From the NCBI GenBank assembly GCA_024640985.1, contig JAHEDY010000005.1, forward strand, positions 19,694 to 83,693: a DNA stretch of 64,000 nt, read 5' to 3'. A program made the position numbers and the translations under genes. This DNA is from Gammaproteobacteria bacterium (GTDB taxonomy: Bacteria; Pseudomonadota; Gammaproteobacteria; Pseudomonadales; Litorivicinaceae). Below, piece after piece: positions 25,132 to 39,264 of this stretch (its first letter is position 1; every line of letters begins with the position of its first letter). Under the pieces are notes generated by a model. It saw only the letters and a program-made list of their open reading frames with translations, was not told the DNA's origin and made no database searches.

Positions 25132-25659
25132 ATGCAGAATCACCGCTTTTCTGATGCTTTATGGATTCCGAGTCCACATTTTGACGAAAGACCCGATTCA
25201 TCGATCTCTTTGATCGTGATTCATGCCATTTCTTTGCCCCCTGGATTATTCAATCCGCTGCCGGTGTTGGCGTTCTTCCAAGGGACCTTAAATCATGAGA
25301 TGGATGCCTATTTCGAGGCGATCAAAACCGTGCGTGTTTCCTCGCACTTGGTAATTGGTCGTGACGGCGCGATGTATCAGCCAGTTGCCTTTGATCAGCG
25401 AGCCTGGCATGCCGGTGAGTCGAGTTTTTCAGGGCAATCGGGGTGCAATGATTTCAGTATCGGTATTGAGTTAATTGGCGCAGAAGAGGGTCCATTCACC
25501 GATGCGCAGTATCGGGTATTAGCGACGGTTTGCCAGAGGCTCTGCCAGACTTACGATATTCCTGTTGACCAGATCGTTGGGCACCGTGACATCGCCCCTG
25601 GTCGAAAAGTTGATCCAGGAGCCGATTTTGACTACGGGAGGATTCGGCCGACGATTTAA
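25132..25659 (+). CDS. ampD: 1,6-anhydro-N-acetylmuramoyl-L-alanine amidase AmpD
   Basis: Zinc amidase: VIHAISLPPG, HLVIGRDGAMYQPVAFDQRAWHAGES, VGHRDIAPGRKVDPG; start approximate. Confidence 0.93.
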   Translation: MQNHRFSDALWIPSPHFDERPDSSISLIVIHAISLPPGLFNPLPVLAFFQGTLNHEMDAYFEAIKTVRVSSHLVIGRDGAMYQPVAFDQRAWHAGESSFSGQSGCNDFSIGIELIGAEEGPFTDAQYRVLATVCQRLCQTYDIPVDQIVGHRDIAPGRKVDPGADFDYGRIRPTI

Positions 25660-26549
25660 AACGGTGGTGCGAGAGCCAGAGCCAGTGGCATCCAGACAAT
25701 CGCGCCGATATTGCCGATCAACACAATTGAAGCCACACGTGTCGGTTCCTGATTGTATCGTTCTGCAATCATGTAATTGAGTACCCCCGGTGGAAGCGCT
25801 GCGAAGACCAAAAACACACTCCACTGCAGTGGATCCAGTTGCAGTAGCGGCTGCAGGGCAAAGGCAATGCCGAGCCCTAAGACCGGGCAGAGGATTGCTG
25901 CGAATAATCCAGTCCCAAAGTCGTTGGTACTCACATCTTGCATGCGAACACCCAACGCAAAGAGGACCAGGGGAATGACAATTTGACCGAGCATATCGAG
26001 AGGGATTAGTGCGATTTCAGGAATGTGTGTGTGGGTAAAGCCGACGAACAATCCAGCAAAGGTCGCCAGGATTGTTGGGATCGATAATGCGTTCAGCACT
26101 TTGGCGCGGCGGTCGAGGATGTAAAAGCCCAGCGTAAAATGTAAAAACATAGAAATGATAAAGATCACAATCATTGCGGGCATTGCTGCTTCACCGAAGG
26201 CTAACAGCACGAGAGGCAGAGCTAAATTTCCAGTGTTGGTAAACATCATGGGTGGAATCAATGTTTTGGGCTGGATACCTGTGAGCTTGCAGATTGGCCA
26301 AGTCAGAACCGCAGACCCGAGAATGATGCCGAGGGTACCTATCGTCAGTGGAAGATAGTCTGTGAGATCGACTGACTTCGATGCCAAGACCGAAAAAATC
26401 AACATGGGTACGAAAAGTTCCATATTGACTTGGTTGATGGTCGACATGTTGGGTTTGCGCCAACGACCATAAAGATAGCCGATCATGACGACAATCAATA
26501 CCGGAATGACACTCCCGAGAATACGATCAAGAATGACATCATTAGCCAT
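25656..26549 (-). CDS. AEC family (auxin efflux carrier-like) transporter
   Basis: 297 aa, about ten TM segments, FTNTGNLALPLVLLAFGE motif. Confidence 0.85.
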   Translation of the reverse strand: MANDVILDRILGSVIPVLIVVMIGYLYGRWRKPNMSTINQVNMELFVPMLIFSVLASKSVDLTDYLPLTIGTLGIILGSAVLTWPICKLTGIQPKTLIPPMMFTNTGNLALPLVLLAFGEAAMPAMIVIFIISMFLHFTLGFYILDRRAKVLNALSIPTILATFAGLFVGFTHTHIPEIALIPLDMLGQIVIPLVLFALGVRMQDVSTNDFGTGLFAAILCPVLGLGIAFALQPLLQLDPLQWSVFLVFAALPPGVLNYMIAERYNQEPTRVASIVLIGNIGAIVWMPLALALAPPF

Positions 26550-26610: not shown

Positions 26611-27768
26611 TTACTTCCGATGGAAGCCGTCGGGAACCATTAAGATCTCTTGGTCGATATCACTCATTCGGGTTCGGCCGCAAAGACCCATGGTGGTATC
26701 GAGTTCTTTATGAATCACTCTGAGTGCATCTGTGACACCTTGTTCGCCATTAGCTCCTAAGCCGTAGGTGTAAGCGCGACCGATCATGGTCCCTTTGGCT
26801 CCGAGTGCAATCGCCTTCAGGACGTCTTGCCCTGAGCGGATTCCACTATCAAACATGACTTCGGTTTGATGGCCCACGGTATCGACGATGTGTGAAAGCA
26901 TCCGAATTGAACTCGACGCACCATCCAGTTGTCGTCCGCCATGGTTTGAGACCACAATCGCATCAGCGCCTAGGTCGGCTGCTTTTTTCGCGTCCTCGGC
27001 ATCTAAGATGCCTTTCAGGATGACCTTGCCGTCCCACATTTCCATCAGTTGCCCGATGCGCTTCCAGTCCAGCGATTGATCAAAAGCCTCCGCGGTCCAG
27101 CTGCTGAGTGATGACGCATCACTAACACCTTTCGCGTGACCAACGATATTGCCGAAGAATCGCCGTTTGGTCCCCAGCATTTCAAGCCCCCAGCTGACTT
27201 TGGTCATCATGTCCGCAATGGATTTGACGGTGAGTTTTGGTGGAGCTGAGAGCCCGTTCTTCAAATCTTTGTGACGCTGCCCAAGCATCTGTAGATCGAC
27301 AGTGATCACTAATGCGGAGCAATTCGCCGCTTTGGCGCGCTCCATGAGTCGACGCATGAAATCATCGTCTTTGAGCGTGTAAACCTGAAACCAAAACGGC
27401 TGATCGGTATGTTCAGCGACATCTTCGATGGAGCAAATTGACATCGTTGAGAGGGTGAATGGGATGCCAAATTTGGCCGCTGCGCGTGCTGCTTTAATTT
27501 CACCGTCAGCGCATTGCATGCCCGTTAATCCAACAGGTGCTAATGCCACTGGCATCGACACATTGTGTCCAATCATTGTGGTTTCGGTAGAGCGACCTTC
27601 CATGTTGACAGCAATTTTTTGGCGAAACCGGAGATCTTGGAAGTCGGTTGTGTTTTCAACAAAGGTTTGCTCTGTCCAGCTGCCGGTTTCCGCATAGTCA
27701 TAGAACATTTTGGGAACACGACGTTTATAAATCTGTTTGAGATCCTCAATGCAGGTGATGACTGTCAT
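26611..27768 (-). CDS. FMN-dependent alpha-hydroxy acid dehydrogenase (LldD-like)
   Basis: 385 aa, FYDYAETGSWTEQT, VVSNHGGRQLDGASSSI, FDSGIRSGQDVLKAIALGAKGTMIGR. Confidence 0.9.
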   Translation of the reverse strand: MTVITCIEDLKQIYKRRVPKMFYDYAETGSWTEQTFVENTTDFQDLRFRQKIAVNMEGRSTETTMIGHNVSMPVALAPVGLTGMQCADGEIKAARAAAKFGIPFTLSTMSICSIEDVAEHTDQPFWFQVYTLKDDDFMRRLMERAKAANCSALVITVDLQMLGQRHKDLKNGLSAPPKLTVKSIADMMTKVSWGLEMLGTKRRFFGNIVGHAKGVSDASSLSSWTAEAFDQSLDWKRIGQLMEMWDGKVILKGILDAEDAKKAADLGADAIVVSNHGGRQLDGASSSIRMLSHIVDTVGHQTEVMFDSGIRSGQDVLKAIALGAKGTMIGRAYTYGLGANGEQGVTDALRVIHKELDTTMGLCGRTRMSDIDQEILMVPDGFHRK

Positions 27769-27798: not shown

Positions 27799-27809
27799 TG
27801 GTCTGACCA
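27799..27809. promoter_or_regulatory. PdhR-type operator 1 (TGGTCTGACCA)
   Basis: 11-bp palindrome 31 bp upstream of the LldD-like start; identical to two sites upstream of the PdhR-like gene. Confidence 0.75.
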
Positions 27810-27864
27810 GTGAATCAATTAATGCGTTAAATGATAGATATATTAACGGTTGGTCGATATCTGA

Positions 27865-27875
27865 TGGTCAGACCA
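27865..27875. promoter_or_regulatory. PdhR-type operator 2 (TGGTCAGACCA)
   Basis: 11-bp palindrome, followed by a further TGGTCAG half-site at 27878..27884. Confidence 0.7.
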
Positions 27876-27880
27876 CTTGG

Positions 27881-28081
27881 TCAGTCTTTTTGCTTCGTGG
27901 TTTCTTCCCAAAGATCATAGCAGGCCATTCCAACGACAAAAATCGCGATCAAAGCGAATGGGAGGCCGCCCCAGAATCCTGCGAAACCGGTCGAAATACT
28001 GTGCGATAGACCGAAAATAAAGGTTGCGAACAAGGCAGTGGCGATGAGCCCGAGGATTTGTTTTACGCGTTGTGAAAGCAT
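27881..28081 (-). CDS. Small two-TM protein of unknown function
   Basis: 66 aa, hydrophobic; start codon overlaps amidase stop (TAATG), implying translational coupling. Confidence 0.65.
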   Translation of the reverse strand: MLSQRVKQILGLIATALFATFIFGLSHSISTGFAGFWGGLPFALIAIFVVGMACYDLWEETTKQKD

Positions 28082-29415
28082 TAGCCTTCTCCTTCATCAA
28101 ATAATTCATTCGTCAACCAGTGCGCGGTCCTCAAAAGGCGCGCATCGTCTCTCATGCGTCCGATTAATTGAACGCCGATCGGTAACCCATGTTCTCCCTG
28201 CAGAATCGGAAGATTCAGGGTTGGGAGCCCCGCAAGCGTCCAAACGGTGCAGAAAATAGGATTTCCAGTATGTCCTTCATTCAACAAAGGTGCTTCTCCA
28301 GACGCTGATGGCGAAAGAATGGCATCAAAATCTTCAAAGAAATTGTCGAAGAAAGCAGTCAGCGAGTGTTTGATATCAAGCGCCTCTTGATACTGATCTT
28401 CAGAATACGCTGCGCCTTGCGTCAGCATCGAGCGCAATGTCTCAGACAGTTGATCATGACCAAATAAGCCCATGGTCTCAAATGCAGCCGCGGCTTCTTT
28501 AAGATGAATAATTCGCTGTGACTCGATCAATTGATCAAAGACCGGCGGTGCTTCTAAGACCTCGATGCGCCCTTCAAGTGCTTCGGCAATCTCGCGAAAA
28601 CCTTCGGTGCAGGCGTGTTCCTGCAGGTCTTGGTAGGGAAGTGTGAAAATCGCCAAATTCGGCTGCATCGGTGGATCGGATAAATAACCTTCAACGCAGT
28701 TCGGTCGCGGAGCGGCGATACTGTGTGGATCGCGGCTATCGTGAACCGATAACACATCAACGATCGAGGCGATATCAGCAAGCGATGCTGCGAATACACC
28801 CATCTGATCGAGTGTGGGTGATTGCTCGAAGACTCCTGTTCGGGAAATAATTCCAGCTGAGGGTTTCATCGCGTAGACACCGCAGTAAGACGCTGGACGA
28901 ATGACCGAACCATTGGTTTGCGAGCCAATCGCAATCGGAACTTCTCCGGCTGCCACTGCGGCCGCTGAACCGGCCGATGATCCTCCAGGCGAATGCTCCA
29001 ATGAGTGAGGGTTCTTCGTTCTGGCTGGATGCAAGGCCGCGAATTCGGTGGTCTCAGTTTTCCCAAGAATGACAGCGCCCGCTGCCTCTAATGCGTCAAC
29101 GAGCGCGGCGTTTCTTTCAGACACCTGTCCCATCAGCGGAGATCCGCAGCCATGCGGCATTCCTTTAACCTCAATGATATCTTTGAGGCCAATGGGACAG
29201 CCATGTAAAGCCCCCATCGCGCTGCCGTCTTTTCGCAACCAATCCATAGCATCGGCGCGCTCCAGTGCACGATCACGGTCAATATAAGACCAAGCTCCAA
29301 TCGCGTCTGGTGAATCAATTTGCGAGAGACAGTGTTCGGTCCATTGCCGAGTGGTCAATTGACCGTCAGCAATGGCTACGACTGTCTCTGCGACTGTTTG
29401 CGTTGAGTCGGGCAC
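28081..29415 (-). CDS. Amidase signature family protein
   Basis: 444 aa; HGCPIGLKDII, GGSSAGSAAAVAAGEVPIAIGSQTNGSVIRPASYCGV; GTG start overlapping dctM stop. Confidence 0.9.
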   Translation of the reverse strand: MPDSTQTVAETVVAIADGQLTTRQWTEHCLSQIDSPDAIGAWSYIDRDRALERADAMDWLRKDGSAMGALHGCPIGLKDIIEVKGMPHGCGSPLMGQVSERNAALVDALEAAGAVILGKTETTEFAALHPARTKNPHSLEHSPGGSSAGSAAAVAAGEVPIAIGSQTNGSVIRPASYCGVYAMKPSAGIISRTGVFEQSPTLDQMGVFAASLADIASIVDVLSVHDSRDPHSIAAPRPNCVEGYLSDPPMQPNLAIFTLPYQDLQEHACTEGFREIAEALEGRIEVLEAPPVFDQLIESQRIIHLKEAAAAFETMGLFGHDQLSETLRSMLTQGAAYSEDQYQEALDIKHSLTAFFDNFFEDFDAILSPSASGEAPLLNEGHTGNPIFCTVWTLAGLPTLNLPILQGEHGLPIGVQLIGRMRDDARLLRTAHWLTNELFDEGEG

Positions 29416-30776
29416 TATGGGATGTACTCGCCAAAGAGATAGTCAGGCAACCACAACGCGATTCCTGGGAATTGGTACAAGAGCACCATGCTGAATAGCA
29501 CAATTCCCAGATACGGCAATAACCCTTTAAAGATCTCTACCAACTCAATCTGATTTTTCAAGACCCCTTTCAGGTAGTAAGCAGACATCGCCATCGGCGG
29601 TGTCAGGAAGGAGGTCTGAAGGTTGAGTGCGACTAGCATTGCAAAGAAATATGGGTTAACTCCGAAAGTGTCGAGCATCGGCAAAAAGATTGGGACGAAG
29701 ATGATCAGAATTTCTGACCACTCAAGAGGCCAACCCAAGACGAAGATGATGGTCTGAACCATGACGAGGAATTGCCAAGGAGCCAAATCCATCCCGAGAA
29801 CCCAATGCTCGATCACATCGTGTCCTCCAAGGTACGAGAATATCGATGCGAACGTCCAAGAACCAACGAATAACCAACAAACCATGGCTGTCGCTTTGGC
29901 ACACAGGAACACACTCTCCTGAATTTTTTTCCAAGTCAGCGCCCTGTAAAAAGCAGCAAGGATCATCGATCCGAGCGCACCCATCGCGGCCGCTTCAGCC
30001 GGGGTCGCTAATCCACCAAGTATCGAACCCAGTACCGTGACAATCAAAATAGTCAGCGGTAAAAATGACACCAGAAGATCTTTATAAATCTGCGCTTTTG
30101 GCGGGATATCTTCTGCGAGTGGTTTTGGTGCAATCGAAGGATTAAGTGTTGCCCGCGTAATGGCATAAACGATGTATAAGCCGGCGAGGATGAGGCCGGG
30201 GAACATCGCTGCTGCGTATAACCGTAACGGTGACAATTCAGCAATTGCAGCGTAAACGATCAACATGATGGATGGCGGAATGAGGATTCCCAGGGTTCCA
30301 CCAGCACAGATCACGCCGGCAGCAAACTTCTTGTCATAGTTCGCTTTGGCCATGGCGGGGTAGGCGAGAAGGCCCATCAACGTCACAACCGCGCCCACGA
30401 TACCCGATGCTGTTGAAAATACAGCGCAGGTAATTAATGCAGAAACGGCCATTGATCCTGGGAGGTTGTGCGCGGCCATTTGTAACGATCGGAAGAGACG
30501 TCCAACAATATCGGCGCGTTCGACCACATACCCCATAAACAGGAATAGTGGGATGGCGACTAATGTGTCACTTTCCATGACCGAGTAAGTGTTTTGGTTC
30601 AGCAGGTAGAAAATTTGGTTATCAAAAATATCGCTGAATGTTTGAGGGCTGCTGTAGTAGGCGTAATAGCCAAATCCAACACCCATCGCAATCAGAGTGA
30701 ACGCGATTGGGAAGCCAAGTAGCACCAATACGATAAATAGGCATAACATTAAAATCGCGACTTCAGGGTTGCTCAT
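29415..30776 (-). CDS. dctM: TRAP transporter large permease (DctM)
   Basis: Start set at MSNPEVAILMLCLFIVLVLLGFPIAFTLI; multi-TM, AGGTLGILIPPSIMLIVYA motif. Confidence 0.93.
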   Translation of the reverse strand: MSNPEVAILMLCLFIVLVLLGFPIAFTLIAMGVGFGYYAYYSSPQTFSDIFDNQIFYLLNQNTYSVMESDTLVAIPLFLFMGYVVERADIVGRLFRSLQMAAHNLPGSMAVSALITCAVFSTASGIVGAVVTLMGLLAYPAMAKANYDKKFAAGVICAGGTLGILIPPSIMLIVYAAIAELSPLRLYAAAMFPGLILAGLYIVYAITRATLNPSIAPKPLAEDIPPKAQIYKDLLVSFLPLTILIVTVLGSILGGLATPAEAAAMGALGSMILAAFYRALTWKKIQESVFLCAKATAMVCWLFVGSWTFASIFSYLGGHDVIEHWVLGMDLAPWQFLVMVQTIIFVLGWPLEWSEILIIFVPIFLPMLDTFGVNPYFFAMLVALNLQTSFLTPPMAMSAYYLKGVLKNQIELVEIFKGLLPYLGIVLFSMVLLYQFPGIALWLPDYLFGEYIP

Positions 30777-31351
30777 GCTTGCACTTCCTTCTTCTCTGCT
30801 TCTTCCATCAGCAATTGCTCTGTCTCTTTCACATCGCTTAAGCGCGCCATCCACTCGTTATCTTTGATCGCTCGGATGCAACGGCAGATCTCGGCAAGGC
30901 CCTGAAGGATGAGTAAGAATCCAGCGACAGGGATGAGTGTTTTGAAGAAATAAATTTGGATTCGAGCTGGGCTATTCCAACTCACTTCTTTGTAGCGCCA
31001 ACTGTCGGCCGCGACCTCTGTGCCAAACCAAAACAAAGCGAGCATGCCTGGAAAGAAGAACGTCACGTAAAGCACAAGGTCAATCTTGCCTTGCGTCTTT
31101 GGTTTCAATAATCGATATAAGAAATCACCGCGGACATGGGCGTCTTGAGCGAGCGCGTAAGGCCCTGCCATTAAGAAAAGTGCCCCGTACATCTGGATCA
31201 TCATGTCCATTGACCATACAGTCGGAGCGTTCAGCACGTAACGAACAAACACCTCATATGACACCGAGAGTGTCAAAATTAAGATACACCAGCCAAAGGC
31301 ACGCCCTACCCAGACGTTTAACCCTTCAATGGTATAGACAAATCGTTCCAC
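30773..31351 (-). CDS. dctQ: TRAP transporter small permease (DctQ)
   Basis: Four TM segments; proposed GTG start at 31351 preceded by GGAGA SD rather than the upstream ATG at 31444. Confidence 0.85.
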   Translation of the reverse strand: MERFVYTIEGLNVWVGRAFGWCILILTLSVSYEVFVRYVLNAPTVWSMDMMIQMYGALFLMAGPYALAQDAHVRGDFLYRLLKPKTQGKIDLVLYVTFFFPGMLALFWFGTEVAADSWRYKEVSWNSPARIQIYFFKTLIPVAGFLLILQGLAEICRCIRAIKDNEWMARLSDVKETEQLLMEEAEKKEVQA

Positions 31352-31470
31352 GATTGTTTCTCCACAATAAGATTCACAGTGTGCATTTAATTGCCTTACA
31401 ACAGTGTGTTGTAAGGATTCGGGCTCCAGTCCACCCAAGGGCACTGACTTTGATGTGCCACTTAGAAACT

Positions 31471-31502
31471 AAAAATCCCGGAGCGCTTGAGCGCCCCAGG
31501 AT
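31471..31502 (-). terminator. Intergenic terminator/attenuator between dctP and dctQ
   Basis: Minus strand ATCCTGGGGCGCT CA AGCGCTCCGGGAT TTTT: long GC stem followed by a U run. Confidence 0.75.
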
Positions 31503-31520
31503 CGTAAATCACCGTTCGGA

Positions 31521-32624
31521 TTAACCGAAGTAGTGATTGTAGGCCATACGATAGTCTGGCTGATTCAAGTTCAAGTAGCCCATGACGCGCTCAGCGTATG
31601 CTCTTTGCGAGTCGATCACTTTCTTGAAGAATGGATCTTCGGCATTCAGACGATCGACAACGATGTCCCAAGCCTTTAACTGCTCTTTCATCACAGAGTC
31701 AGGAGTCCGGTGAACGTTTACACCCTGATTGCGCAGGTTTTGCAAATCGTCAGCGTACCGGTTCGTGTTGTGCCAGTAGAAGTTTGAGTTCTCAGCTTCT
31801 GAAGCGTAGCGCAAGATCGCTTGCTGCTCGGCTGGTAAAGCATCGTACTTCTTCTTGTTGAACGAGATTTCGAAGAATTCCTGTGACTGGTGGAACGACC
31901 CGAGGTGATAGTCTTTCGAGACATCCTGCATACCGAAGTCACGGTCAGATGTTGGGTTGTTAAATTCTGCAGCGTCAATCAAACCTGACTTCATCGCTGG
32001 CTGGATCTCACCACCTGGCAACTGAACGACTGACATACCCATTTCCAGAAGAACGTCTGCAGCCAGACCAACAGTACGGTACTTAAGACCATTCATCTGC
32101 GAAGCATCTTTGATTTCTTCTTTGAACCAACCCATTGGCTGAGCTGGCATTGGGCTGTTGAAGAATGAAATGATGTTGAGGCCTAAAGAACCCATCAACT
32201 CGTCAAACAACTGCTGACCACCGCCGTAGTGCAACCAACCGAGAACTTCTTGTGATGACCAGCCAAAGCATGGGCCAGTTCCGAACAATGACGCTGTTTT
32301 GGATTTTGAGTACCAGTACGCAGGTACGTAGTGACATCCATCCAACACCCCGCGGTGAACCGCGTCTTGCATCTGTGATGTTTTAACGACGGAATTCACT
32401 GGAAGTAAATCAATCTTAAGATCTTTCCCAGCCATTGCATGAACGCGGTCGACATAGGCTTGCGCGTTTTCTAGGAAAATACCGCCACCCCAAGCTGCCT
32501 GCACTTTCAATGTTGTACCGCCGTGACCACCGGCGTTGACAAGTGCTGGGAAACCGAGGCTGGAGGCCGCTGCTGTTGCCGTAGCTCCTTTCAGAAACGA
32601 ACGGCGATCGAGTTTTTTGCTCAT
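31521..32624 (-). CDS. dctP: TRAP substrate-binding protein (DctP/TakP-like) with Tat signal
   Basis: MSKKLDRRSFLKGATATAAASSLGFPALVNA Tat signal; GLKYRTVGLAADVLLEMGMSVVQLPGGEIQPAMKSGLIDAAEF typical of the 2-keto acid/lactate TRAP group. Confidence 0.9.
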   Translation of the reverse strand: MSKKLDRRSFLKGATATAAASSLGFPALVNAGGHGGTTLKVQAAWGGGIFLENAQAYVDRVHAMAGKDLKIDLLPVNSVVKTSQMQDAVHRGVLDGCHYVPAYWYSKSKTASLFGTGPCFGWSSQEVLGWLHYGGGQQLFDELMGSLGLNIISFFNSPMPAQPMGWFKEEIKDASQMNGLKYRTVGLAADVLLEMGMSVVQLPGGEIQPAMKSGLIDAAEFNNPTSDRDFGMQDVSKDYHLGSFHQSQEFFEISFNKKKYDALPAEQQAILRYASEAENSNFYWHNTNRYADDLQNLRNQGVNVHRTPDSVMKEQLKAWDIVVDRLNAEDPFFKKVIDSQRAYAERVMGYLNLNQPDYRMAYNHYFG

Positions 32625-32753
32625 CGGACTACCTTTTTTATCTATTTTTTTCTAGCGCTTATCCATATCTGCTCAATGCAGTGCGCCCTACAAATCCATC
32701 CTTGGAGAGCCGATATTGAGGATTTCGAGCCGATGTTGCAAGGCTTTTAAAAA

Positions 32754-32774
32754 AAAAGTGATCAGACCACTTTT
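32754..32774. promoter_or_regulatory. PdhR-type operator 3 in the dctP / hydroxyacid dehydrogenase divergent promoter region
   Basis: AAAAGTGATCAGACCACTTTT, 21-bp near-perfect palindrome containing TGATCAGACCA. Confidence 0.7.
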
Positions 32775-32835
32775 CGATTGAAACTTGTTTCCAAAAACGC
32801 CAATGTGCCTTTTCGCATCAATTAAGGAAATTGAA

Positions 32836-33792
32836 ATGGTTGACTTAAGCATTACGAGGTTATTGGTCGAACCCGTCTTGGAGCGCGCTCGCAACAATTA
32901 CGCGGTTTGGCTGAATGACGATGATCATATTATGTCATCTGATGAACTCATCGCTCGGAGCCATGAATCCGATGCCCTGATGGTTTGTCATTCAGAACTC
33001 TTGTCGGCCGATGTTGTTGCCAAGCTGGGAAGCCGTTTGAAAATCGTTGCCAACTACTCGGTCGGCGTTGATCACTGTGATCTGGAAGCACTCAAATCGC
33101 GCGGGATCGTGGTGACCAATACTCCTGATGTACTTTCAGATGCGACCGCGGAAATTGCCATGTTGCTGCTTTTAGGTGCGAGCCGTCGTGCGTACGAGGG
33201 TGATCAGATGCTACGCCATGGGACTTGGAAGCACTGGGCTCCGGTGGAAATGAACGGTATTCAAGTCACATCGAAAAAGCTTGGGATTGTGGGTATGGGT
33301 CGAGTCGGTCAGACGGTTGCGAAGCGTGCGCGCGGTTTCGACATGGAAATCCATTATAGCAACCGTCGTCGATTGCCTCCTGAATTGGAATGTGGAGCAA
33401 TCTATCACACTTCAGTGAAATCCTTGTTTGAGGCGGTGGATATGATTTCCCTGAATTGTCCAGCGACTCCTGAAACAGACTATTTAATTAATGCCGAATC
33501 CATCGGTTGGATGCGTCCGGGTGCGGTCTTTGTCAATACTGCTCGAGGCCGCTTGGTTGATGAGGCAGCATTAATCGATGCATTGCAGTCAGGTCACATC
33601 GCAGCTGCAGGTCTGGATGTCTTTCAGAATGAGCCCGGTGGCAATCCTGAGTTCGCCAAATGTCCGAACGTTTTGATGTTGCCGCATTTGGGGTCGTCAA
33701 CACGCGAAACACGAAAGGCGATGGGTGATCGGGCGCTCGATAATTTGGATGCATTCTTTGCTGGCCAAGAGCCGAGAGATCGATTGGTTTAA
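32836..33792 (+). CDS. D-isomer-specific 2-hydroxyacid dehydrogenase
   Basis: NAD-binding GIVGMGRVGQTVAKRARGFDMEIHYSNRR, FVNTARGRLVDEAALIDAL, LPHLGSSTRETR; start at ATG with AAGGAAA SD. Confidence 0.92.
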   Translation: MVDLSITRLLVEPVLERARNNYAVWLNDDDHIMSSDELIARSHESDALMVCHSELLSADVVAKLGSRLKIVANYSVGVDHCDLEALKSRGIVVTNTPDVLSDATAEIAMLLLLGASRRAYEGDQMLRHGTWKHWAPVEMNGIQVTSKKLGIVGMGRVGQTVAKRARGFDMEIHYSNRRRLPPELECGAIYHTSVKSLFEAVDMISLNCPATPETDYLINAESIGWMRPGAVFVNTARGRLVDEAALIDALQSGHIAAAGLDVFQNEPGGNPEFAKCPNVLMLPHLGSSTRETRKAMGDRALDNLDAFFAGQEPRDRLV

Positions 33793-33806
33793 CTGTTTGC
33801 GCATTT

Positions 33807-33817
33807 TGGTCTGACCA
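33807..33817. promoter_or_regulatory. PdhR-type operator 4 (TGGTCTGACCA)
   Basis: Exact palindrome upstream of the pdhR-like gene. Confidence 0.8.
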
Positions 33818-33827
33818 GTTAACCTAT

Positions 33828-33838
33828 TGGTCTGACCA
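33828..33838. promoter_or_regulatory. PdhR-type operator 5 (TGGTCTGACCA)
   Basis: Exact copy of operator 4, displaced by 21 bp (two helical turns), 26 bp upstream of the pdhR-like start codon. Confidence 0.8.
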
Positions 33839-33863: not shown

Positions 33864-34631
33864 ATGCATGGATACCTGTCGACCCCTCGAGTGACGCGAG
33901 CGGCTGATGTCATTATGGACCAGATCGAGCGCTTGATTCTCGAGGGGAAAGTGCGCCCAGGCCAGAAACTACCCTCTGAACGTAGCTTAGCTGAAGAGTT
34001 TGATGTTTCAAGGCCGACCGTCCGAGAAGCCATTCAAAAACTCGAGGCGCGAGGGCTGATCCAGCGTCGTCATGGCGGTGGCACTTTTGTTGCGGAGCAT
34101 GTGGGCTCAACATTCATCGATCCGATGATGGCGATGATTCAACGGTCGCCAGATGGAACCTTTGACATCCTTGAATTGCGATTTGCTCTAGAAAGTGTGG
34201 CTGCTTGGTTAGCCGCTGATCGCGCAACCGAGCGGGCTCGCGGGAATGTGCAACGTCGCTACCACGAACTCCAGGCTGCGGTGCGATCGCATGACCTCCA
34301 TCGGGAAGCGAAAGCAGACGCTGAGTTTCATTTGGCGATTGCCGAGGCATCTCAGAACGGCATCATCCTTCATATCATGCGATCGATCTTCGTGCTACTT
34401 GAGGAATCGATTGTGAAAAATTTAGCCGAGCTCAATCTGGATCGAATTCGAAAACAAGATCTGGCCCTGCAGCATGAGGCGATTTATCGCGCGATCGTGA
34501 TCGATCGCGATCCGGGGGCGGCCAGGAGGGCAGTCCGTCAGCATATGTTAACTGTGAGTGAATCACTGGACCGTGAACGACTTGCAGATACGAAACCGCG
34601 GCGCTTGAAAGAGTTGACACAATCGACTTGA
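33864..34631 (+). CDS. pdhR: GntR/FadR-family (FCD) regulator, PdhR-like
   Basis: wHTH ILEGKVRPGQKLPSERSLAEEFDVSRPTVREAIQKLEARGLIQRRHGGGTFV closely resembles E. coli PdhR; immediately upstream of aceE. Confidence 0.8.
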   Translation: MHGYLSTPRVTRAADVIMDQIERLILEGKVRPGQKLPSERSLAEEFDVSRPTVREAIQKLEARGLIQRRHGGGTFVAEHVGSTFIDPMMAMIQRSPDGTFDILELRFALESVAAWLAADRATERARGNVQRRYHELQAAVRSHDLHREAKADAEFHLAIAEASQNGIILHIMRSIFVLLEESIVKNLAELNLDRIRKQDLALQHEAIYRAIVIDRDPGAARRAVRQHMLTVSESLDRERLADTKPRRLKELTQST

Positions 34632-34675
34632 GTGAAGTGCCGTTGTTCACCAACCAACCCAACGAGGTGAGAACT

Positions 34676-37345
34676 ATGGCGAATACGCCAATAACAGTCG
34701 ACCAGGATCCGGTCGAAACCAAAGAATGGCTAGAAGCCTATGAGTCTGTACTACAACATGAAGGAGCTGATCGCGCGGCCTACTTGCTGAATCAACTTGT
34801 TGCACGTGCCAGCCAGGAGGGAGCAAGTCTTCCGGTTGCCATGACCACACCGTACCGGAACACTATCCCCGTGCAAAAAGAAGCGCGGATGCCGGGCGAT
34901 TTGTTCATGGAGCGACGCATCCGTAGCTTGATCCGCTGGAATGCACTCGCCATGGTGATGCGCGCGAACAAGTCAGGCGATGATTTGGGTGGTCACATTG
35001 CTACCTACCAATCGGCAGCAACCTTGTACGAAGTGGGTTTTAACTATTTTTGGAAAGGACCTGATCATACTGAAGGCCAGGATCTTCTGTATATCCAAGG
35101 CCATGCAAGTCCAGGAATTTATGCGCGTTCCTTTTTAGAGGGGCGTCTATCTGAAAAGCAGTTGGATAATTTCCGACGCGAAGTGGATGGGGACGGTTTA
35201 TCGTCCTACCCACACCCCTGGTTAATGCCGGATTACTGGCAATTTCCGACGGTTTCAATGGGTCTCGGACCCATTCAATCGATCTACCAAGCCCATGTGA
35301 TGAAGTATTTGGTGAATCGTGGGCTCTCTGATCAGCCAAACCGCAAAGTTTGGGCATTCCTCGGTGATGGAGAGATGGACGAACCTGAGTCTTTGGGTGC
35401 GATCGGTCTCGCTGGGCGAGAAGGTCTTGATAACCTGATTTTCGTGATCAACTGTAATTTGCAACGTCTCGATGGACCGGTTCGTGGTAACGCCAAGATC
35501 GTTCAAGAACTGGAAGGCGTCTTCCGTGGTGCTGGATGGAATGTCATCAAAGTTCTTTGGGGTCGTCATTGGGATCCATTATTCGCTCGTGACCGCCAAG
35601 GCCTGATGCAGAAAGTCATGGATGAAGTGGTCGATGGTGAATTGCAAAACTGCAAGGCCAAAGGTGGTGCATACACGCGCGAACATTTCTTTGGCCAATA
35701 TCCGGAATTGAAAGAGATGGTGTCTGATCTTTCAGATGAAGACATTGCGCAACTGAATCGTGGAGGTCACGATCCCACCAAGGTGTATGCGGCTTATCAT
35801 GCGGCCGTTAACCACACAGGACAGCCGACCGTGATTCTGGCGCAAACCGTCAAAGGGTACGGCATGGGTTCATCAGGTGAGTCAGCTAACCCATCGCACC
35901 AGGTGAAAAAGCTAGATCTGGAGAATTTGAAAAAGTTCCGCGATCGTTTTGCCATTCCGGTTAGTGACGACGACCTCAGTGATTTGCCCTATTTCAATCC
36001 AGGTCCTGAGAGTCCTGAAAACAAATATCTACAAGAGCGTCGACAGGTCTTAGGTGGTTATTTGCCCTCACGTCGGGCCTGGAAAGATCCGCTAGGATGT
36101 CCAAGTCTCGATGCGTTTAAGCAGCAGACCAAAGGGACAGGCGACCGCCAAATCTCAACGACCATGGCATTCGTTCGGATGTTGTCGACACTGGTGAAAG
36201 ACAAAACCATTGGACATCGAGTGGTCCCTATCGTACCTGATGAGGCACGGACATTCGGGATGGAAGGCATGTTCAAGCAACTGGGGATTTACACCACCGA
36301 AGGTCAGAAATACATTCCACACGATGTCGACCAGGTGTTGTCTTACCATGAAGACAAAGCCGGCCAGATTCTCGAAGAAGGTATTAATGAATCGGGTGCG
36401 TTTTCAGCTTGGATGGCCTGTGCTACCTCTTATGCAAACCATAACCAACCATTAATCCCATTCTATATTTACTATTCGATGTTTGGTCATCAGCGGGTGG
36501 GTGATCTGACCTGGGCTGCCGGTGATATCCAGGCCAAGGGCTTCTTGTTGGGCGCAACTTCAGGCCGGACCACCTTAAATGGGGAAGGGCTGCAGCACCA
36601 AGACGGGCATAGCCATATCCTTGCGGGCACTGTACCGAATCAGCGTTCTTATGATCCAACCTATAGCTACGAAGTTGCGGTCATCGTTCAGCACGGCTTA
36701 AAGCAGATGTATGACGAGAACCAGAGTGTGTTTTATTACATCACCTTGATGAATGAAAACTACAACCATCCGGACATGCCTGAAGGTGTTGAATCAGACA
36801 TCATCAAGGGAATGTATCTGCTGAAGCCTGCTGCGCCTAAGATGAAGCACAGCGTTCGTTTGCTGGGCTCAGGAACGATTCTGAGAGAGGTTGAGGCAGC
36901 AGCTGAAATGCTGGCTGATTTTGGCGTCGGTGCTGAAGTGTATAGTGCGACCAGCTTTAATGAGTTGCGTCGTGATGGCCAGTCGGCAGCACGTTACAAC
37001 TTGTTGCATCCAGAAGAGAAAACGGCTCGGATTAGTCACGTTGAAACCATGTTGGGTGGATCTGATGCGCCAGTGGTGGCTGCGACAGACCACATCCAGC
37101 TGTACTCCGAGCAGATTCGTCCATTCCTCGGAAAACGGACCTACATTACGCTTGGGACTGATGGATTTGGTCGGTCGGATTCACGCAAAAAATTGCGTGA
37201 GCATTTTGAAGTGGATCGTCGATTTGTCACGATTGCGGCGCTCAGAGCGCTGTCGATGGATGGAAAGATTGATCCTAAAGTCGTGACGAAAGCGATCAAA
37301 GATTTCGACATCGATCCCGATCGTCTTGATCCGGTGACATTGTAA
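34676..37345 (+). CDS. aceE: Pyruvate dehydrogenase E1 component (homodimeric)
   Basis: About 889 aa from MANTPITVDQDP; GDGEMDEPESLGAI ThDP motif; start set at ATG after GAGGTGAG SD. Confidence 0.97.
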   Translation: MANTPITVDQDPVETKEWLEAYESVLQHEGADRAAYLLNQLVARASQEGASLPVAMTTPYRNTIPVQKEARMPGDLFMERRIRSLIRWNALAMVMRANKSGDDLGGHIATYQSAATLYEVGFNYFWKGPDHTEGQDLLYIQGHASPGIYARSFLEGRLSEKQLDNFRREVDGDGLSSYPHPWLMPDYWQFPTVSMGLGPIQSIYQAHVMKYLVNRGLSDQPNRKVWAFLGDGEMDEPESLGAIGLAGREGLDNLIFVINCNLQRLDGPVRGNAKIVQELEGVFRGAGWNVIKVLWGRHWDPLFARDRQGLMQKVMDEVVDGELQNCKAKGGAYTREHFFGQYPELKEMVSDLSDEDIAQLNRGGHDPTKVYAAYHAAVNHTGQPTVILAQTVKGYGMGSSGESANPSHQVKKLDLENLKKFRDRFAIPVSDDDLSDLPYFNPGPESPENKYLQERRQVLGGYLPSRRAWKDPLGCPSLDAFKQQTKGTGDRQISTTMAFVRMLSTLVKDKTIGHRVVPIVPDEARTFGMEGMFKQLGIYTTEGQKYIPHDVDQVLSYHEDKAGQILEEGINESGAFSAWMACATSYANHNQPLIPFYIYYSMFGHQRVGDLTWAAGDIQAKGFLLGATSGRTTLNGEGLQHQDGHSHILAGTVPNQRSYDPTYSYEVAVIVQHGLKQMYDENQSVFYYITLMNENYNHPDMPEGVESDIIKGMYLLKPAAPKMKHSVRLLGSGTILREVEAAAEMLADFGVGAEVYSATSFNELRRDGQSAARYNLLHPEEKTARISHVETMLGGSDAPVVAATDHIQLYSEQIRPFLGKRTYITLGTDGFGRSDSRKKLREHFEVDRRFVTIAALRALSMDGKIDPKVVTKAIKDFDIDPDRLDPVTL

Positions 37346-37356
37346 GGAGGTATGAC

Positions 37357-39264
37357 ATGACAACGATTCGTGTACCGGATATTGGTGATGCCTCGAACGT
37401 CACAGTCATTGAAGTGGCTGTTGCTCAAGGCGATACAGTCGCCGAAGGGGATACCTTAATTGTTTTAGAGTCCGATAAGGCCTCCATGGAAATTCCAGCC
37501 GACGCATCCGGTGTTGTGGGTGCGATCCATGTGTCTGAGGGTTCTGAGGTCAATGAAGGTGATCCAATTTGTGAATTGGACAGTGCGGATGCTGTTGGCT
37601 CTGCGCCTGTTGAGCCGCCTCCCGCTGAGGCTGTGACTGCAGCGCCAGTCGCAGCAGCTCCTGCGTCCCAAGAAGCCACGGCGAGTGAGCAGGTGGTTGT
37701 GCCTGACACTGGGAGTGCTGATGGCGTGACTGTGATTGAGGTCTCGGTTTCAGTGGGTGATACCGTTGCCGAAGGCGATACTCTGATCGTTCTGGAGTCA
37801 GATAAAGCGTCCATGGAAATTCCTGCACCTAAGGCTGGAGTGATTAGCGCCTTGATCGTGGCCGAGGGCCAGCAAGTGGTGCAGGGCGACCCAATTTGCG
37901 AGATGTCAGTGACCGCAGGCAGTCCAACTGCGACTCCTTCGCAAGCTCCGGCAACCGACACACCAACGACACCTGTGGCTGCTGCGCCGTCAAGCCGTGC
38001 AGGCAGTCTCGAAAAAGTGGTCGTTCCTGATACCGGAAATGCCGATGGTGTAACTGTGATCGAGGTCAGTGTTGCGATTGGTGAGACCGTCTCTGAGGGC
38101 GATACATTAATTGTTCTCGAATCGGATAAAGCCTCGATGGAAATACCATCGCCGGTGAGTGGGAAAATCGTCGCACTCTCTGTGAAAGAGGGTGATTCCG
38201 TGGCTCAGGGTGATGCGATTGCCGATGTGGAATCCACCAGCGGTTCGGCGACCCCGGCAAGTCCAGTAGCACAACCGAGTGAACCTGTGGCTCCAGTCGC
38301 TACAGCGGCCGCCCAAAGCCAGACGATAGAACCTCCCGCAGCAGAGATTTCAGGGTCTCATGTGCATGCAGGACCAGCGGTGCGTGCGTTAGCGCGTGAG
38401 CTCGGTGTGGATCTGACCAAAGTGCCGTCATCTGGACCACGAGGCCGGATCACCAAAGATGACTTGCACAATTTTGTGAAGGCGAAATTGAGCCAAAAAG
38501 AAGCAAGTCCGGCGGTCACGGGTGGAACAGGAATTCCAGCAATTCCACCGGTGGATTTTGCAGCCTTTGGTCCTGTGGAACGAATTCCCATGACCAAAAT
38601 TCACAAACTCACAGCCGATAACATGACGCGCTGTTGGCTCAACGTTCCAGCCGTGACACAGTTTGACGAAGCCGACATCACAGATTTGGAAGCGTTCCGG
38701 AAATCCATGAAAGCTGAGGCTGAAAAGAAGGGTGTGAAGCTTACTCCGCTTCCATTTTTGATTAAGGCCTCTGCCTATGCTCTGGCTGAACTACCCCAGG
38801 TCAATGCCTCGATCGATCCTGCGACGGACGAAATCGTCAGAAAAGGGTACATCCACATCGGTATTGCCGTGGACACACCTGATGGATTGATGGTTCCAGT
38901 GATCCGTGATGCGGATCAAAAAGGAATTTGGGAGATTGCCGCTGAAGCATCCGAGTTGGCCGATAAAGCGAAGAATAAGAAGTTAAAACCCGCAGAAATG
39001 CAGGGTGCGACTTTTACCATTTCATCGCTTGGATCCATCGGTGGTACAGCCTTTACACCAATCGTTCCTTCACCACAGGCAGCGATCCTCGGAATATCCA
39101 AGGCATCGATTCAACCGGTTTGGGATGGAGCTGCATTCCAACCACGGTTGATGCTACCGTTGTGTTTGTCCTATGACCACCGTGTGATTAATGGTGGAGA
39201 TGGTGCACGATTTACCACTGTCTTGAGCAAGGTGCTTGCTGATATCAGGCACTTGGTCTTTTGA
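37357..39264 (+). CDS. aceF: Pyruvate dehydrogenase E2 (dihydrolipoyl acetyltransferase), three lipoyl domains
   Basis: 635 aa; LESDKASMEIP occurs three times; E3-binding domain GPAVRALARELGVDLTKVPSSGPRGRITKDDL; catalytic LSYDHRVINGGDGARF. Confidence 0.97.
   Translation: MTTIRVPDIGDASNVTVIEVAVAQGDTVAEGDTLIVLESDKASMEIPADASGVVGAIHVSEGSEVNEGDPICELDSADAVGSAPVEPPPAEAVTAAPVAAAPASQEATASEQVVVPDTGSADGVTVIEVSVSVGDTVAEGDTLIVLESDKASMEIPAPKAGVISALIVAEGQQVVQGDPICEMSVTAGSPTATPSQAPATDTPTTPVAAAPSSRAGSLEKVVVPDTGNADGVTVIEVSVAIGETVSEGDTLIVLESDKASMEIPSPVSGKIVALSVKEGDSVAQGDAIADVESTSGSATPASPVAQPSEPVAPVATAAAQSQTIEPPAAEISGSHVHAGPAVRALARELGVDLTKVPSSGPRGRITKDDLHNFVKAKLSQKEASPAVTGGTGIPAIPPVDFAAFGPVERIPMTKIHKLTADNMTRCWLNVPAVTQFDEADITDLEAFRKSMKAEAEKKGVKLTPLPFLIKASAYALAELPQVNASIDPATDEIVRKGYIHIGIAVDTPDGLMVPVIRDADQKGIWEIAAEASELADKAKNKKLKPAEMQGATFTISSLGSIGGTAFTPIVPSPQAAILGISKASIQPVWDGAAFQPRLMLPLCLSYDHRVINGGDGARFTTVLSKVLADIRHLVF

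Follow-up and report, generated by a model that had tools for sequence, protein, structure and literature searches.

A predicted PdhR-type regulon connecting pyruvate dehydrogenase genes with 2-hydroxy/2-keto acid and glycolate genes in an OM252-clade gammaproteobacterium

The stretch of DNA analysed here (64,000 nucleotides of contig JAHEDY010000005.1; hereafter the ‘window’) belongs to a gammaproteobacterial genome (1.63 Mb, 98.9% complete) of the Litoricola-related OM252 clade, its nearest relatives being Litoricola-type metagenome-assembled genomes and the isolate LSUCC0096, itself a member of the OM252 clade, for which the name Ca. Halomarinus has been proposed (PMC8269220). We hold with good confidence that the product of 33864–34631, a regulator of the GntR/FadR subfamily, is the PdhR of this host, its dimer binding TGGTCWGACCA operators at four promoter regions; very probably, its control extends beyond the adjacent pyruvate dehydrogenase genes to neighbouring ones for the uptake and oxidation of lactate-like acids, and to a distant glycolate-oxidation operon. 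Its predicted targets are its own pdhR-aceEF operon, an LldD-like/AEC operon, the divergent TRAP-amidase and D-2-hydroxyacid dehydrogenase genes, and glcDEF. What we observe are the sites, their conservation, a PdhR-type DNA-binding domain, the synteny, and the lack of any rival protein of the same subgroup.

Working from the operators outwards, a letter-level check of the window places exact copies of TGGTCWGACCA at 27799, 27865, 33807 and 33828, as a preliminary description of this DNA had claimed, together with a symmetric 21-mer at 32754 enclosing a core with one mismatch (TGATCAGACCA, 32759–32769). All five sites (four exact, one near-exact) fall in promoter regions:

33807–33817, no strand assigned: operator 1 of the pdhR-aceEF promoter, TGGTCTGACCA, kept in all 14 relatives
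33828–33838, no strand assigned: operator 2 of the pdhR-aceEF promoter, at exactly 21 bp from operator 1 in 15 of 15 genomes
27799–27809, no strand assigned: promoter-proximal operator of the LldD-like/AEC operon, one of a pair that recurs in eight of 13 genomes
27865–27875, no strand assigned: distal operator of the LldD-like/AEC operon, directly after the stop codon of a small open reading frame (ORF)
32754–32774, no strand assigned: operator AAAAGTGATCAGACCACTTTT, between the divergent dctP and D-2-hydroxyacid dehydrogenase genes, in four of nine genomes with such an arrangement

With up to one mismatch allowed, the window holds six matches against 0.89 expected, a count reached by none of 100 dinucleotide shuffles. 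We also trained a position matrix on 38 genus sites, among them the four exact ones of the window but neither the 32759 site nor glcDEF. It scores the five sites at 17.8–27.8, the next best position in the window reaching 7.7; in 12.8 Mb of shuffled window (200 shuffles), five positions score 17 or above. The corresponding locus of the cultivated relative LSUCC0096 has all five sites, and its version of the regulator is 99% identical to that of the host.

The regulator and the genes that follow it are:

33864–34631, + strand: GntR/FadR-subfamily regulator of PdhR type (winged helix-turn-helix, wHTH, plus FCD), from Pfam GntR and FCD, best NCBIfam model PdhR, followed by aceE-aceF
34628–37345, + strand: aceE, pyruvate dehydrogenase E1 (TIGR00759, 1434 bits)
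37357–39264, + strand: aceF, pyruvate dehydrogenase E2 (TIGR01348, 696 bits)

The earlier view of this protein as carrying a PdhR-like wHTH, and of its gene as preceding aceE-aceF, holds on both counts: the DNA-binding domain is 58% identical to that of E. coli PdhR (LldR, 36%; GlcC, 34%; FadR, 31%), the recognition helix VSRPTVREAIQKLEA fits the PdhR type VSRPSxREAIQxLEA, and the gene lies immediately upstream of aceE-aceF both in the window and in relatives with flanking sequence, with a GGTN3ACC operator upstream of the regulator's own gene. NCBIfam models rank PdhR highest, at 221 bits, followed by LldR (195) and GlcC (162). An LldR proper would be expected to lie closer to LldR than to PdhR and to be encoded within an lldP-lldR-lldD operon; here the wHTH identities run the other way and the linkage is to aceEF. 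Among the six GntR proteins found in the host genome there is no second one of the PdhR/LldR/GlcC type, the best remaining match to the regulator having an E-value of about 1e-9, and the recognition helices of the other five differ. The FCD domain retains the metal ligands Asp-His-His-His (D152, H156, H204 and H227), which are likewise found in LldR and GlcC; PdhRs themselves come in two types, one with these ligands (OM252, Hahella) and one in which some have been lost (E. coli, Alteromonadales). Since the ligands are present, unlike in E. coli PdhR, we leave the choice of effector wide.

The tandem operators reported upstream of the FCD regulator recur, exactly 21 bp apart, in 15 of 15 genomes (the window plus 14 relatives with the locus); in the host they lie 26–57 bp upstream of the pdhR start codon. 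Beyond the genus, TGGTN3ACCA is found in 66 of 66 pdhR promoters, against 4.6% of random 460-bp stretches, and the exact TGGTCWGACCA in 52 of the 66, against 2.4%; on this comparison the motif is well within the range of PdhR sites. Its assignment to the PdhR-type protein is made on the strength of synteny, the absence of another candidate, and those 52 promoters. In Pseudoalteromonas, Rheinheimera and others (L029–L094, up to 450 bp upstream of pdhR) the operators form wider pairs, approximately 137, 147 or 158 bp apart. These spacings are near 13, 14 and 15 helical turns, with a phase concentration of R = 0.70 at 10.25–10.5 bp over 21 representatives (p = 0.0004 against a uniform null, relatedness being only partly corrected for); such phasing suggests DNA looping by PdhR in these genera. 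Several relatives also possess a second aceE-like gene, ∼52% identical (for example G001:C1:957858, G002:C58:5146 and G014:C30:57339) and sometimes beside a GntR gene of its own; no such second gene was found in the host genome.

Across the whole host genome the exact motif occurs eight times against once for a reversed control pattern. Four copies make up the window cluster, one precedes glcD, and three lie within genes (acetamidase-like, rng and valS) and were not taken as promoter sites; the only promoter-near exact copy outside the window cluster is thus that upstream of glcDEF, the genes for glycolate dehydrogenase. Scanning was by patterns, which weak sites far from the consensus could escape; looser patterns combined with matrix scoring of loci turned up a second glcD operator and, beyond these promoter regions, nothing else that scored at least 17, with 14 two-mismatch matches that had no locus being judged by their matched letters only.

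The glcDEF genes (GlcD 64% identical to E. coli GlcD) are on a different contig from the window cluster; their exact site falls in the 3′ end of tauE and precedes glcD by 94 bp. Using a matrix trained without glcDEF, an operator pair is found in all 15 genus genomes from which the gene was recovered, with a spacing of 170 bp in 14 of them and of 154 bp in the other; the distal site is weak (10.7) in two of the 15. Both operators (L189:6897 and L189:7067) lie within the coding part of tauE, the gene upstream, where the codons lying over them are near-invariant (GAC, ATT, GGT and ACC each 13/13, TTA 12/13) as compared to a mean entropy of 1.34 bits, with 1% invariant, for the other conserved tauE codons. 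In genome G014, tauE is missing from the locus and both operators are kept. The codon test and G014 together point to selection acting on the DNA and not on the protein alone, the operators apparently constraining the codons of tauE. No regulator of the PdhR/LldR/GlcC subgroup adjoins glcDEF in the host.

Returning to the window, the remaining genes of the cluster are:

25656–26549, − strand: AEC-family permease, downstream of the LldD-like gene (domain searches)
26611–27768, − strand: LldD-like FMN-dependent 2-hydroxyacid dehydrogenase sharing 43% identity with E. coli LldD (domain searches)
27881–28083, − strand: small membrane ORF of 66 aa, last in the TRAP/amidase operon, between amidase and LldD-like gene (translation)
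28081–29415, − strand: amidase (domain search)
29415–30854, − strand: TRAP large permease DctM (domain searches)
30773–31444, − strand: TRAP small permease DctQ (domain search)
31521–32624, − strand: DctP, the TRAP solute-binding protein, carrying a Tat signal and closest among solved structures to the keto-acid binders 7ug8 and TakP (2hzk)
32836–33792, + strand: D-isomer 2-hydroxyacid dehydrogenase, glyoxylate/hydroxypyruvate reductase-like (domain searches; start from ribosome-binding site and conservation)

For the last of these we favour ATG 32836 over TTG 32785 as the likely start, because a ribosome-binding site is found there and conservation begins there in several relatives. TakP contacts pyruvate through Tyr100, Gln156, Arg177, Glu214, Trp215 and Glu240 (PMC1839085); in an alignment read by eye, DctP keeps the first four, with Trp215 replaced by Phe and Glu240 by Gln, a set of residues compatible with a keto/hydroxy acid ligand, short of proof.

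These local sites are less constant than the pairs at pdhR and glcDEF. Comparative footprinting of the orthologous loci, an approach already named in the preliminary description, finds the LldD-like pair in eight of 13 genomes, six of these with a 66 bp spacing and two with one of 88–89 bp, and no pair in the other five; it finds the dctP/2-hydroxyacid dehydrogenase site in four of the nine examined. The two relatives with the wider spacing (L026 and L027, 4205–8761) carry, in place of the TRAP-amidase operon, an inverted version that is only ∼51% identical, the LldD-like operator pair still being present; the replaced operon there shares these paired operators with the LldD-like gene. As read from sites and footprints, this is a real, conserved and expanded PdhR-type regulon with a core of pdhR-aceEF and glcDEF and a variable local periphery of LldD-like/AEC, TRAP and D-2-hydroxyacid dehydrogenase genes. 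The preliminary description had proposed an operator common to several promoters, pdhR-aceEF among them, with genes for 2-hydroxy/2-keto acids, and this the sites and footprints support; of its ‘expanded, physically clustered’ local regulon, the expansion stands but the locality only in part, the most conserved partner being glcDEF on its separate contig, and it is the clustered part that varies.

Two weaker candidates elsewhere in the genome were not accepted: TGGTCGGACCA at −71 of icd (score 11.3), which is seen in several relatives but within surrounding DNA that is also conserved, and a weak match (13.3) at the 3′ end of bhcC. The icd site, 64–71 bp before the gene (L265–L273), is kept in most relatives checked and lost in others. 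The bhcC gene is part of a full beta-hydroxyaspartate cycle cluster (bhcR, A, B, C, D) on contig C28 of the host genome (G000; L263:4882–10280), BhcB and BhcC scoring above their NCBIfam cut-offs, BhcA, BhcD and BhcR below theirs yet best-scoring. Such a cluster allows glyoxylate formed from glycolate to be assimilated; the scans gave no accepted operator within it.

Saying this, several points count against our assignment. The motif is just as much the LldR box of E. coli, TGGTCnGACCA (PMC10272880), such that sequence alone cannot name the protein, and it also occurs next to GlcC-like genes of related families. The regulator's 221 bits lie under the NCBIfam PdhR cut-off of 330—we therefore limit the label to a PdhR-type protein and do not claim an E. 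coli-type equivalog—and a tree of PdhR, LldR, GlcC and FadR proteins, with long branches, weak support and E. coli LldR falling among the PdhRs, does not place it firmly in the PdhR clade. Relative G017 (78% complete) has glcDEF operators and no detected regulator, with none upstream of its aceE; the TRAP/2-hydroxyacid dehydrogenase site, with its TGATC, is a weak one that fewer than half of the examined genomes carry; and sigma-70 consensus scans near the operators gave no match. The LldR-box and GlcC-like points in particular would suit a different GntR protein (LldR-, GlcC- or FadR-like) using the sites, with the PdhR-like protein merely regulating its own gene; we regard this as improbable, however, as the other five GntR proteins of the host are not PdhR/LldR/GlcC-like and differ in their helices, whilst the sites flank the pdhR gene itself in every genome with the locus and recur, as exact motifs, in most pdhR promoters elsewhere.

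Another alternative, which we consider unlikely but better placed than a second GntR protein, would restrict the functional targets to pdhR-aceEF and glcDEF, the LldD-like and TRAP sites being leftovers or weak and unused. The absence of the LldD-like pair from five of 13 genomes, and of the TRAP site from five of nine, speaks for it; against this, the LldD-like pairs keep their 66 bp spacing in six genomes with mostly strong scores, and the pair persists where the TRAP operon was inverted. To the notion that the palindromes are chance or coding by-products and no operators at all we give next to no credence: the motif is only 11 bp long and the glcDEF sites do overlap tauE codons, but the shuffle tests, the codon-level test, the tauE-less G014 and fixed spacing over 15 genomes all oppose it, and for the pdhR and glcDEF sites, given their conservation, a chance reading looks very unlikely. 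We retain the PdhR-type protein as the probable user of all four promoter regions.

Control of lld and glc operons by PdhR is already known in E. coli, where the protein recognises AATTGGTnnnACCAATT and targets lldPRD and glcDEFGBA (PMC7660256), and the host case extends that kind of regulon. Common to both are an FCD-GntR gene by aceEF and an autoregulatory operator with a GGTN3ACC core; the centre is free in the E. coli box, however, but mostly CWG in that of the host, the metal-ligand residues of the FCD domain are missing from E. coli PdhR, E. coli has separate LldR and GlcC proteins where none were found in the host, and the host adds TRAP, AEC and D-2-hydroxyacid dehydrogenase genes. FadR-subfamily sites in general share TKGT-N3-ACMA (PMC4494728). 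With the E. coli LldR regulon (PMC10272880) the host shares the operator AAnTGGTCnGACCAnTT, which LldR recognises in pairs, as well as an lldD-type gene and a glc operon as targets; three of the four host target promoters (pdhR, the LldD-like gene and glcDEF) have this core in pairs, as LldR targets do, whereas the DNA-binding domain is of PdhR type and the linkage is to aceEF, not lldP. The PdhR regulon of Shewanella likewise reaches beyond aceEF, including lldP-dld (PMC5343134, PMC3223726), but adds TCA and fermentation genes, where the host adds glcDEF, the TRAP system and hydroxyacid dehydrogenases. Lastly, GlcR/GlcC control of glcDEF also employs a FadR-subfamily regulator for glycolate oxidase, the alphaproteobacterial GlcR being a repressor released by glycolate (PMC11323563); in those systems a dedicated regulator adjoins glcDEF, in contrast to the host.

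We infer binding, repression, the direction of control and the effector as follows. A PdhR dimer would likely repress its promoters through paired operators, given that the operators lie so close before the pdhR start and that pairs allow cooperative binding; the 21-bp spacing, equal to two helical turns, would favour cooperative binding on one face of the DNA. Repression would probably be relieved by pyruvate, or a related 2-hydroxy/2-keto acid, at the FCD metal site. The cell would in this way tie its pyruvate dehydrogenase to incoming carbon from lactate, glycolate and keto acids. The predicted targets would furnish pyruvate, by lactate-type oxidation and keto-acid uptake, or glyoxylate, by GlcDEF. 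More tentatively, and with doubts that outweigh our inclination towards it, a single OM252 PdhR with an intact metal-binding FCD domain may have absorbed the roles of LldR and GlcC and sense a 2-hydroxy acid (glycolate/lactate) besides, or instead of, pyruvate.

Among the products of phytoplankton, glycolate is a major one. One FadR-subfamily regulator may serve a streamlined marine bacterium for the pyruvate, lactate and glycolate metabolism that E. coli runs with three, and, if the tentative extension were true, a single switch would link pyruvate dehydrogenase with the oxidation of glycolate and lactate, in a streamlined marine genome able to assimilate glycolate through the beta-hydroxyaspartate cycle. 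The operators yield direct, testable predictions for the cultivated LSUCC0096 and, for the evolution of regulons, show plainly how a shifting periphery can surround a core (pdhR, glcDEF) that is conserved.

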